Below are positions 2,924 through 62,102 of a stretch of DNA of 64,000 nucleotides, in pieces. Each line of letters starts with the position of its first letter. Positions within the stretch are counted from its first letter, which is position 1. The stretch spans positions 1 through 64,000 of the forward strand of contig JAQXJP010000007.1 of assembly GCA_029008875.1 (NCBI GenBank), written 5' to 3'. The notes below the pieces were generated by a model, which worked only from the letters and a program-made list of their open reading frames with translations, was not told the origin of the DNA and made no database searches. This DNA comes from Lachnospiraceae bacterium. GTDB taxonomy: Bacteria > Bacillota > Clostridia > Lachnospirales > Lachnospiraceae. Position numbers and translations under genes: made by a program.

Positions 2924-3185
2924 TCCCCCGCTTACTTCTTCTCGCGGGGTATGAGCCGCTCATCTCCCCTTCCTATACCCCGCTTACTTTTTCTCGCGGG
3001 GTATGGGCCGCGCCTTTCTTCTTCCCATACCCCGCTTATTTTTTCTCGCGGGGTATGGGCTGTCTCTTTCTTCTTCCTATACCCCGCTTTCTTCTTCTCG
3101 CGGGGTATGGGCCGCTCATCTCTTCTTCCTATACCCCGCCTGTTCTTTTCCCGGGGTACACACAGCATATTTTCCTTCCCCATAC
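2924..3185. repeat. Tandem palindromic repeat array 1, 52-bp period
   Basis: Five units with a constant 52-bp period (CCCC of each core at 2926, 2978, 3030, 3082, 3134). Each has a palindromic core of about 28 nt, arms TACCCCGC and GCGGGGTA around a 12-nt pyrimidine-rich loop, then a 24-nt segment shared within this array (TGGGCCG... ending TTCCTA). The last unit is degenerate. Because 52 is not a multiple of 3, reading frames rotate from unit to unit, so the open frames across it are probably not genes. It fills the space between the groEL terminator and the antiporter. The same core and period recur at 61777-62102. Confidence 0.93.
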
Positions 3186-3225
3186 CAAAGGAAGACAGAA
3201 AGATTCCATCTCAAGCATTGCAAAG

Positions 3226-12156: not shown

Positions 12157-12614
12157 AATTCTCTCCTTCGTCATTGTTTTTTGTTCTTTTCATTCTTTTT
12201 CAATACTATTCTTTTTCCTTCGTTGTATTCTTCTTAACAGCGGCACAATGACTCACATAACTGTATATATAGCTGTTTTCGTATCTGCTTGCACAACTTC
12301 TATAAAGACCACTTGCATAGCTTCTATACATCTGTTTACCAACTGCGTCTAAACTGTTTATGTGTTATATATACACCTATAACAATATCGTGTCAACATA
12401 ATTTTTGGAAAATTTTTGAAAAAAATATATTCTCGAGTATTTATTTCTTCTCTTTCAATATTTCTTTCCAACGTCAGCCTCGCATTTTTATATGGTAAAA
12501 ATAAATAATTTCGACGTTCGATTTTTATGTAACATGCGCTCTACCATATATTTTTTCTATGTGTTAGCATATCTATTACCCCGTTAACACACACTTACCA
12601 AAGGAGGTATTTAT
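12157..12614. other. AT-rich intergenic stretch between divergent genes
   Basis: About 460 bp, clearly richer in A/T than its surroundings. It holds the CPBP operon promoter and leader, including a near-repeat of TTGCACAACTTCTATA and TTGCATAGCTTCTATA at 12290-12330, and the ribosome site AAAGGAGG (12600-12607) of the plus-strand nuclease-like gene. No other gene is seen. Confidence 0.7.
12362..12396 (-). promoter_or_regulatory. Promoter of CPBP-GntR-ABC operon with overlapping operator
   Basis: On the minus strand: TTGACA (12396-12391), 17-nt spacer, TATATA (12373-12368). The -10 box is covered by a near-palindrome GTGTATATATAACAC (12376-12362), the GTGT-n7-ACAC type expected of YtrA-like GntR repressors. 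Binding there would block transcription. The leader to the CPBP start would be about 200 nt. Confidence 0.72.
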
Positions 12615-13400
12615 ACGAATCCAAAACAAATCAAAAAAAATATTCATACCCTGACACAGCAAATTAATCAAATGTATCATCAGCTCACATTCTATCCGCC
12701 GGGTGAATTAATCGCCCATCAAAACGGGCCTTACATCAAATTCTTTCTCAAATCGGATAAAGATTACCGCTATATTCCCAGCAAGGATCGAGAGATTAAA
12801 AAACTGTACGCCCAAAAGAAGTACCTTCAGGCACAAATCCAAGACTTTCAAGCAGAGCAAGAACTCCTGCTCACCTATCTGACCAATCACGAGAAATATG
12901 CTTCGAAAGCGGAATCTCTCCTATCCGTTCAATCCCATTACCGCGATTTGCTCATTGACACTTTCTCCACACTGGATTTCCCCGCTAAACAATGGCTCTC
13001 CGAAGAATACCCCACGAATCCCAACTTCCCCGAACAGTTGAAATATCCTTGTCCATCCGGTATATATGTCCGTTCCAAATCTGAGTTACTGATTGCAACC
13101 GCACTGTTCTCACACCACATTCCTTTTCGTTATGAGAATGAGTTGATACTGGACGGTATCCCGTACTATCCGGATTTCACCATCCTTCACCCATCGACCG
13201 GAGAAATCGTTTATTGGGAACACTTTGGGTTAATGAATGATCCCGGATATGTCAAAAAAGCGTCCCGAAAGATTGAGCATTACATTTCCTGCGGTATATA
13301 CCCGGGAATGAACCTTATCACTACATATGAATCCGATGAAATTATTTTTTCTCCCCCAATTATTGAGCAAACCCTTCAACATTATCTCGCTCTGGAGTAA
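12615..13400 (+). CDS. PD-(D/E)XK nuclease-like protein, probable ACG start
   Basis: A 261-aa protein if started at ACG 12615, which sits 7 nt after AAAGGAGG; the first in-frame ATG (12672) has no ribosome site. The frame upstream of that ATG reads (M)NPKQIKKNIHTLTQQINQ, fitting a coiled coil that continues through residues 50-90. The C-terminal half looks like a PD-(D/E)XK fold: E157 in RSKSELL, PD187 in YYPDFTI, and YWEHFG at 201-206, where the usual E-x-K reads E-H. The order resembles a family I associate with Lachnospiraceae (GELI..QNG near the start, YWEHFG near the end). Function is unknown. It lies alone in an AT-rich, repeat-rich stretch. Confidence 0.72.
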   Translation, partial: TNPKQIKKNIHTLTQQINQMYHQLTFYPPGELIAHQNGPYIKFFLKSDKDYRYIPSKDREIKKLYAQKKYLQAQIQDFQAEQELLLTYLTNHEKYASKAESLLSVQSHYRDLLIDTFSTLDFPAKQWLSEEYPTNPNFPEQLKYPCPSGIYVRSKSELLIATALFSHHIPFRYENELILDGIPYYPDFTILHPSTGEIVYWEHFGLMNDPGYVKKASRKIEHYISCGIYPGMNLITTYESDEIIFSPPIIEQTLQHYLALE

Positions 13401-13582
13401 TTGGCGTTTTTGTCCAATCACCCCTTGACTCAGTTGACGCTTTGGCAATCAGTCCCTTGGCGGTTGGCGCTTTGCAATCAGTCCCTTGGGCAGTTGGCGC
13501 TTTGACAATTAGTCCCTTGACAGTTGACTTCTTGAACCAATTACCACTTTGGCCGATTGTCCCCTTGGCCCAATCAACACTT
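13401..13582. repeat. Degenerate 30-bp minisatellite
   Basis: Five to six degenerate copies with a 30-bp period. Clear unit starts are GTTGACGCTTTGG at 13433, GTTGGCGCTTTG at 13463, GTTGGCGCTTTGAC at 13493 and GTTGACTTCTTGAAC at 13523, each followed by a CAATCAGTCCCTTGG-like part. It begins just after the nuclease-like gene's stop. The period is a multiple of 3 and the minus strand is open, but there is no ribosome site. Confidence 0.85.
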
Positions 13583-13677
13583 TGGGCTAAATGACGCTTT
13601 ACGGAGTTTTTTCGCCCAAAATATCGTATCCGATTGTTTGAAAAAACAGAGTTTGGGCAAAAAGGCTGTTTTTCCAA

Positions 13678-13736
13678 AATTTATGCCCAAATATTTCTGA
13701 AAAAACGAATTTTTGTCAATCTTTTGGGCATAAATT
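13678..13736. repeat. 14-bp inverted repeat in AT-rich intergenic DNA
   Basis: AATTTATGCCCAAA (13678-13691) and its exact complement TTTGGGCATAAATT (13723-13736) flank a 31-nt loop. Further copies of TTTGGGC/GCCCAAA are scattered over 13550-13800. Purpose unknown. Confidence 0.75.
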
Positions 13737-13875
13737 CACCTTTTAGCATGGAAAAACCCAATTCTCTGAAAAAATAGTATTTTTCTTCCATATTTTGGGC
13801 GCAAAACATCATAATTTACCTTCAAAACCCAATCCACTATAATGAGCTTCTTATCATCCACAAAATGCCAAAACA

Positions 13876-13990
13876 CTCGTCTATTGCCCGGCATCTTCCC
13901 ATCAAAATGAGTGCAAAACGCTCGTCTATTGCCCGGCATCTTTCCACCAAAACGAGCACGAAACACTTGTCTATTGCCCGGCATCATTTC
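13876..13990. repeat. Three 45-bp direct repeats containing GCCCGGCAT
   Basis: CTCGTCTATTGCCCGGCATC starts at 13876 and 13921, and with one change at 13966: an exact 45-bp period. Each copy includes GCCCGGCAT, which is also the left arm of the adjacent gltD terminator (14001), so the repeats could pair with the terminator's other arm. Confidence 0.88.
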
Positions 13991-13993
13991 ATC

Positions 13994-14030
13994 AAAAAAA
14001 GCCCGGCATACATTTCGTATGCCGGGCTTT
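13994..14030 (-). terminator. Intrinsic terminator of gltBD
   Basis: A strong hairpin, AAAGCCCGGCATAC / GTATGCCGGGCTTT, with a 5-nt loop and a run of 7 T on the minus-strand transcript. It lies 20 nt after the gltD stop. Confidence 0.94.
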
Positions 14031-23045: not shown

Positions 23046-23163
23046 GGCAGAGTAGAATCTCATGCGTGAAGTGCCACATGAACAGGGAGTTGACTTGTGG
23101 ACGAAAAGTGTCAGACCAATGGATGTCTGACGCTTGCGGTATTTGATTCGCATCCCGCTGCTA
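23046..23163 (+). ncRNA. THF (tetrahydrofolate) riboswitch
   Basis: The characteristic conserved blocks appear in order: GGCAGAGTAGAATC, GCGTGAAGTG, ACAGGGAG, GGACGAAAAG, a variable stem (GTGTCAGAC / GTCTGACGC), CTTGCGGT and GATTCGCATCCCGCTGC. GAATC pairs with GATTC and CAG with CTG to form the closing helices. THF-I riboswitches sense reduced folates and commonly precede folT. Downstream, CCTCCTT (23202-23208) is complementary to the folT ribosome site AAGGAGG (23234-23240), so control is probably by hiding the ribosome site. Confidence 0.95.
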
Positions 23164-61776: not shown

Positions 61777-62102
61777 TTACTCCGGGGTATCCGCAACCAC
61801 TCTTCACTTTCTATACCCCGCTGATTTCTTTTCTCGGGGTATATACAACCACTCTTCACTTTCTGTACCCCGCTGATTTCTTTTCTCGGGGTATATACAA
61901 CCACTCTTCGCTTTCTGTACCCCGCTTACCTCTTTTCCCCGGGGTATATACAACGACGGTTCGCCTTCTGTACCCCGCTTGCCTCTTTTTCCGGGGTATA
62001 TACAACGACGGTTCGCCTTCTGTACCCCACTTGCCTTTTTTCCCGGGGTACATACAACCACTCTTCACTTTCTATACCCCGCTGATTTCTTTCCAAGCGA
62101 TT
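61777..62102. repeat. Tandem palindromic repeat array 2, 52-bp period
   Basis: Five complete cores (CCCC at 61816, 61868, 61920, 61973, 62025) with partial cores at both ends (61777-61793 and 62075-62102). The period is 52-53 bp. Each core is TACCCCG, 14-nt pyrimidine-rich loop, CGGGGTA (28 nt), then a 24-nt segment shared within the array (starting TATACAAC). The last core has lost its right arm and ends at the PHP gene's stop codon. Core and period match array 1. Confidence 0.94.

Follow-up and report, generated by a model that had tools for sequence, protein, structure and literature searches.

The stretch of DNA analyzed here (the window, 64,000 nucleotides) carries two tandem arrays of the inverted half-sites TACCCC and GGGGTA, and a related array elsewhere in the host genome (G000) adjoins the gene for a putative nuclease. 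Genes of this nuclease family adjoin inverted half-site arrays far above the control level, and the periods of these arrays favor whole helical turns. The best reading of these observations is that the arrays would be binding and cleavage platforms of the partner nuclease that were amplified and dispersed, in the manner of REP elements and their RAYT enzymes but without a HUH transposase. The two window arrays are probably orphans, copied from a phased tandem dyad array that would have its home between a comEC-like gene and the nuclease gene, where the nuclease would bind and cut and where repair would amplify the units and seed them elsewhere.

Anatomy and distribution of the arrays

The initial annotation had described five units with an exact 52-bp period and a second array with the same type of core. 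Both descriptions are confirmed. TRF placed the first array (array 1) at positions 2926-3158 with a period of 52 and 4.5 copies, its core starts (2924, 2976, 3028, 3080, and 3132) are spaced exactly 52 bp apart, and the half-sites of the second (array 2) extend over 61784-62080 with steps of 52, 52, 53, 52, and 52 (Table 1). The first core of array 1 (2924) is degenerate and reads TCCCCC, the interior of the final core (3132) is one base shorter, and a degenerate half-site follows the array at 3183-3188. In the host genome, TACCCC-N10-18-GGGGTA was found 34 times, a few of them as single sites and not in arrays, versus 2 times for the reversed control pattern, and the pairing of the two half-sites is therefore above chance.

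Table 1. Coordinates of the arrays and nuclease genes (window positions unless a contig is named)
Feature	Position	Strand	Remark
Array 1, five TACCCC-N15/16-GGGGTA cores	2924..3158	.	period 52
Array 1 read as four complete GGGGTA-N24-TACCCC units	2946-2981, 2998-3033, 3050-3085, 3102-3137	.	
Array 1, decayed end unit GGGGTA-N24-TACCAA	3153..3188	.	2 mismatches
Array 2, six GGGGTA-N24-TACCCC units	61784..62080	.	steps 52/53
Nuclease paralogue	12609..13400	+	start is a guess
Alternating GCCCAA/TTGGGC half-sites, downstream of paralogue	13486..13729	.	chain of 7
Proposed home-array nuclease gene	G000:C18:59002-59799 (outside window)		266-aa protein, PD-(D/E)XK-like C-terminus

The natural unit is probably GGGGTA-N24-TACCCC plus an N16 linker, since among arrays away from contig ends 17 of 23 begin with GGGGTA and 14 of 23 finish with TACCCC; array 1 itself does neither. 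In 30 array rows taken from seven genomes, 121 of 135 longer gaps measured 24 nucleotides and the other 14 measured 23, and 117 of 123 shorter gaps measured 16; because exact half-sites were required and gaps of 20-28 and 12-21 were permitted, conservation of the arms is built into these counts and that of the gap lengths is not. The 24-nucleotide segments had been described as shared inside each array and different between the two. The first part stands, with a mean identity of 80% for the N24 segments within arrays. The second needs correction, as the segments are not unrelated: the spacers of arrays 1 and 2 are 55% identical versus 33% after shuffling over the 40 spacer positions of the consensuses, a value that 0 of 300 shuffles reached. 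The palindromic core and regular spacing do resemble a CRISPR array, and the caution in the initial annotation that the spacers are not unique is borne out by the same mean identity (0.80), for which reason a CRISPR array was rejected.

Seven arrays of this anatomy are present in the host genome, comprising the two in the window, two on contig 18 (at 1281 and 59876), and those on contigs 24, 35, and 36. A strict three-half-site pattern, run over 84,980 species with a single genome per species, matched 27 stretches. Six MAGs titled Lachnospiraceae or Agathobacter account for 22 of these; the Agathobacter MAG is apparently G016, with which its contig and coordinates agree. The other five stretches (two Streptomyces, Microcystis, Planctomycetota, and Muricauda) were set aside: L067 and L075 resemble other GC-rich repeats, L058 holds one unit, and in L066 and L072 the array script found no unit. 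Of 392 genomes sampled within the order, 1 matched the strict pattern, a four-half-site pattern allowing up to 3 mismatches matched 3 of 62 genomes of the genus, and the exact array pattern was not found in viral contigs. The seven host arrays and the 22 stretches in six MAGs agree with the earlier suggestion of a dispersed, homogenized family, and they show that the core is not confined to the two window sites, as had been considered.

Variants of the pattern were also seen. G027, a genome of the same genus, gave no match to the 52-bp pattern; one of its contigs has, at two places, TACCCC/GGGGTA pairs separated by 83 bp, or roughly eight turns of DNA (L091, G027:C3:80326-80435 and 89896-90005). 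At L228 and L230 (bin.3) and on G012:C22 and C35, TGCCCC recurs with GGGGTA across several units; in these arrays, perfect dyad symmetry is dispensable, or one arm has drifted and been homogenized.

The putative nuclease and its adjoining arrays

One of the host-genome arrays on contig 18 sits between a comEC-like gene and the gene for a putative 266-aa nuclease. The order comEC-array-nuclease is found in G000, G016, RGIG406, and SUG40, where the encoded protein has some 260 residues. The array and nuclease gene of bin.3 stand at a contig start, and in RGIG905 comEC and an array run up to a contig end. The names comEC, groEL, argC, and glyA are what we take the genes to be from their translations or sequence and were not assigned by a tool.

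The partner protein is a putative PD-(D/E)XK-like nuclease, as judged from its residue pattern. Among 55 homologs, E158 (100%), D188 (98%), E203 (100%), and K220 (96%) are conserved, and the E...D...E catalytic pattern of the PD-(D/E)XK superfamily is present. The residues directly after E203 are H and F, so the classical motif lysine is not at its usual place. An AlphaFold2 model built from four sequences (pLDDT 74.7, pTM 0.49) contains a long helix at residues 58-105, the last residues of which fall below a pLDDT of 50. With this weak model, the best Foldseek match had an E value of 0.012 and none was below 0.001; among the top matches, alongside others that are not restriction-like, are several entries that we take to be restriction-like (Bax1, R2, DrdV, MunI, and Cas4). 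Pfam gave no match at its cutoff (best DegS, 25.1 bits versus a cutoff of 27.6, in one member), NCBIfam gave no match, PHROGs gave weak matches only (e.g., phrog_29037 "endonuclease," E = 0.007), and sequence searches of the PDB gave nothing below an E value of 0.04. The C-terminal half of the protein matches the end of the PADLOC PDC-S68 models (E = 3.6e-29; down to 9.4e-30).

Of the 62 genus genomes, 30 encode homologs of the nuclease, often several each, and a profile search placed the family in 39 of 391 genomes of the class and in 22 of 223 genera. Two MAGs count against the proposed partnership: in bin.16, which has 11 array stretches, the best homolog is 40% identical and no TACCCC array was seen in the part of its flank that was covered, and in RGIG905 no nuclease match was found. 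The search of 50,697 phage records gave three weak matches, and no relative was confirmed in viral contigs. Seven plasmid records (H4-H10) match part of the nuclease, mostly its C-terminal half, and six of these are annotated as AAA family ATPase or RecQ helicase. A phage or plasmid origin was rejected on these weak or partial matches and on the count of 0 exact arrays in viral contigs.

The association between gene and array was scored as the length of the longest chain in which a 6-mer alternates with its reverse complement, within 1.5 kb on each side of the gene. A chain of at least 5 was found at 28 of 65 distinct genus genes (68 loci minus three duplicates), at 24 of 61 when the TACCCC seed genes were left out, and at 14 of 21 genes in an independent class set of strong loci that had not been used before, versus 0 of 120 control windows of 3 kb that came from hand-picked places in 20 regions of 14 genomes (Fisher values of ≤1.2e-13 for the genus counts). 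Dinucleotide-shuffled flanks gave a chain of 5 in 4 of 860 cases, and the eight weaker class loci that were excluded (L259-L266) gave one in 1 of 8. No chain of at least 5 was present at 37 of the 65 genus loci or at 7 of the 21 class loci, which counts against the model. The 42 arrays have 37 different best words, or 34 arm types after the merging of four TACCCC-type words; 33 lie mainly upstream and 9 mainly downstream of the nuclease gene, at a median distance of 156 bp, and four of the nuclease genes are bracketed by chains built from one and the same word. At L133, L154, and L244, similar array blocks stand on both sides of the gene, and by eye the flanks at L133 and L154 look like direct copies. 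The arms vary widely in type, and each of the three types that were searched across the genus is confined to few genomes. Patterns with up to 2 mismatches placed GTCAAC arrays in 2 and TGACCC arrays in 1 of the 62 genus genomes, in each case beside the nuclease only; no orphan copies of either type were found in these genomes, which counts against the model.

Phasing, turnover, and competing explanations

Distances between half-sites on the same strand cluster at 51-54, 61-63, 71-73, and 80-84; other values, such as 46, 56, 65, 77, and 96, also occur. With the 34 arm types weighted by type, the vector strength was 0.58 at 10.4 bp with a phase of 0.13 bp, near whole turns, and 0 of 2,000 jittered nulls did as well. 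The peak is broad, and its maximum lies at 10.0 when every distance is taken and at 9.6 when only the modes are, which counts against the model. When distances of 50-56 were removed as possibly shared by descent, the remaining 25 arm types gave a vector strength of 0.49 with a maximum at 10.4-10.5 (0 of 3,000 nulls). Several single arrays mix two distance classes, such as 51 and 82 in L122 or 62 and 71 in L147. Periods that favor whole turns point to binding of duplex DNA, since they are expected of proteins that sit on one face of a duplex and not of RNA.

Close relatives do not carry the same set of arrays. RGIG406 and bin.3, whose partner nucleases are 96% identical, differ in two of the four known RGIG406 orphan arrays, which are missing in bin.3; the flanks there are 92-94% identical, with 7 and 0 bases between the matches versus 550 and 625 in RGIG406. 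The third orphan array is present in both genomes with 8 versus 13 half-sites, and the fourth, also found in both, is divided in bin.3 between two contigs that each end in an array. The two empty bin.3 sites may be deletions, the outgroups having no synteny there, and no clear target duplication was found at either; both points count against the model. None of the six orphan sites of G000 is common to arrays of other genomes, as judged from flanks of up to 2.5 kb.

Spacer sequences retain some similarity between arrays. Array pairs from the same genome have a mean spacer identity of 0.53 versus 0.32 after shuffling, with 43 of 64 pairs significant at 0.01 or better (only 8 of 15 within G000); pairs from different genomes have 0.41 versus 0.30, with 29 of 212 at 0.01, and these count against the model. 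The spacers of array 2 are similar to those of the nuclease-side array (P = 0.007). Those of array 1 retain no residual similarity to this proposed home array (0.35 versus 0.32 shuffled; P = 0.40), which also counts against the model. The comparisons support common descent for many of the arrays, with array 1 tied in only through other arrays (array 2 and L084), since it lacks similarity to the nuclease-side array.

In the proposed mechanism, the nuclease, probably as a dimer formed through its long helix (or as a filament), would bind duplex DNA at paired half-sites that share one face of the helix and would cut within or beside these sites. Recombinational repair of the break would add units and homogenize the array, and rare repair events would seed a copy of the array elsewhere, such that the nuclease locus would be inherited vertically while the arrays turn over.

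Several other explanations can be set against the same observations. It is unlikely, in our judgment, that the arrays are autoregulatory operators, with the nuclease or its N-terminal part only binding the upstream array to control its own gene and with the orphans serving as decoys or other operators copied by ordinary recombination. The mainly upstream position of most arrays, their median distance from the gene, and a helical phasing compatible with cooperative binding would suit such a role, but it does not fit the arrays that lie mainly downstream, the genes with same-word chains on both flanks, the orphan arrays that adjoin unrelated genes, or the absence of two of the four examined orphan arrays from the sister genome. 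A role in defense or self-nonself discrimination, in which the nuclease would attack foreign DNA and the chromosomal array, as a kind of self tag, would sequester or license the enzyme, is quite improbable. It draws on the resemblance of the C-terminal domain to the end of the PDC-S68 models and to parts of the plasmid proteins annotated as AAA family ATPase or RecQ; the PDC-S68 similarity is, however, limited to this C-terminal part, the viral contigs held no exact array pattern, the phage records gave only the three weak nuclease matches, and the presence or absence of arrays between sister genomes would go unexplained.

The arrays might instead act in transcripts, as tandem hairpins of a structured RNA or as protection of mRNA ends, and this we consider very unlikely. 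Segments of array 1 fold better than their shuffles on both strands (z = -9.5 and -10.3), as do those of array 2 (z = -4.4 and -2.8, with 2 of 200 shuffles folding equally in the latter case), and by eye the purine-rich strand agrees with a codirectional flanking gene in 5 of the 7 host arrays (L082 is mixed and L086 opposite). Palindromes fold on both strands by construction, however, no array matched Rfam at the gathering score, and the periods track the DNA helical repeat, for which RNA offers no reason. The guesses of the initial annotation thus divide: a protein-binding array and a mobile minimal element both fit, and a structural RNA is disfavored by the helical phasing. Ordinary replication-slippage repeats with no partner protein, for which the nuclease link would be coincidence, agree with the tandem homogeneity within arrays and are barely credible given the chain counts at nuclease genes versus controls, with the class set independent, and given the helical step common to different arm types.

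Relation to known systems and other features of the window

The closest way of life is that of REP/BIME elements and their TnpA_REP (RAYT) enzymes, or REPtrons, which are described as short palindromes adjoining an enzyme gene, with dispersed intergenic copies and tandem alternation of direct and inverted forms (PMC3733652, PMC8266576). The likeness lies in palindromic repeats that adjoin an enzyme gene (28/65 and 14/21 versus 0/120) and in the tandem alternation. Dispersed copies give a mixed picture, with the seven arrays of G000 and 11 stretches in bin.16 on one side and no orphans for the GTCAAC and TGACCC types on the other. The differences begin with the enzyme, which is PD-(D/E)XK-like here, whereas RAYT combines HUH with a Tyr. 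An H-hydrophobic-H motif was found in 2 of 55 nuclease homologs, at different positions, and no Y1 transposase was among the 25 of 28 Pfam families listed as matched by 24 members. The half-sites here are widely spaced with periods that favor whole DNA turns, and the host genome holds seven arrays of several units, not hundreds of elements. The conserved GTAG/CGTC foot is not a general feature, since, of 135 TACCCC-type units taken together with their 10-bp margins, 21 contain GTAG/CTAC and 23 contain CGTC/GACG. Because two defining features fail, the HUH enzyme and the tetranucleotide foot, the arrays were not filed under REP/RAYT, and a known REP family, which the initial annotation had considered, does not account for them.

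TIGR-Tas systems offer a second comparison; Tas proteins carry a Nop domain, and TIGR-Tas spacers vary. In contrast, the spacers here are similar inside an array, and no Nop domain was among the 25 of 28 Pfam families listed as matched by 24 homologs. What is shared is a tandem array beside the gene for a nucleic-acid-targeting protein (PMC12045711). The PDC-S68 proteins, which are PADLOC candidate defense proteins, have a related C-terminal domain, but their models span 1202-1273 positions, whereas the proteins here, which come with an array, are about 260 residues long and helical in their N-terminal part.

Taken further, the arrays may represent an undescribed minimal class of mobile DNA in Clostridia, in which each kind of phased half-site array would have a restriction-like nuclease of its own that binds and cuts it, amplifies it, and seeds it at new sites; we rate this reading as slightly less likely than not. 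Such a class would follow the REP/RAYT way of life through a different enzyme and by recognition of double-stranded instead of single-stranded DNA. To our knowledge, the HUH transposases are the only kind of enzyme so far described as a partner of dispersed palindromes in bacteria. If a second, unrelated family of enzymes does have arrays of its own, this would mean that array-plus-nuclease partnerships evolve repeatedly, would account for many tandem palindromes in Clostridia, and, with 34 arm types counted, would supply dozens of naturally matched nucleases and long, spaced recognition sites. The portions of open PMC papers covered describe no such nuclease-array partnership, and a prior description is possible, most subscription papers and bioRxiv preprints being outside this scope.

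The window also contains a paralogue of the nuclease gene (Table 1), which was not taken as the partner of array 1 because it has its own flanking arms, GCCCAA/TTGGGC. The same-strand steps of this chain are 71 four times, 46 once, and 96 once, and a stricter fixed-spacing pattern for these arms had no match at 13486..13729. In the region 12588-12672, the frame of the paralogue is open through the ribosome binding site GGAGGTATTTATACG, with no ATG, GTG, or TTG before an internal ATG. In a simple scan of 65 nuclease genes, a ribosome binding site was followed in frame at a normal distance by ATT, ATA, or ATC in 20, ATG in 14, TTG in 6, and GTG in 1, with no call in 24; loci with such an ATT, ATA, or ATC codon after the ribosome binding site include L150, L152, L147, and L185, and only 7 of the 65 lack any in-frame ATG, GTG, or TTG from -60 to +15. 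Rare start codons might keep expression of the nuclease low. Two more tandem repeats lie near the window nuclease, at 13431-13526 (period 30) and at 13869-13997 (period 45). By eye, an inverted pair CTCGT/ACGAG surrounds each unit of the latter, which may be another palindromic array. A known RNA was rejected as an identity for the arrays: Rfam 15 gave no array match at the gathering score, and its match in the window lies elsewhere, a THF riboswitch at 23046-23162 (RF01831, 74.8 bits).
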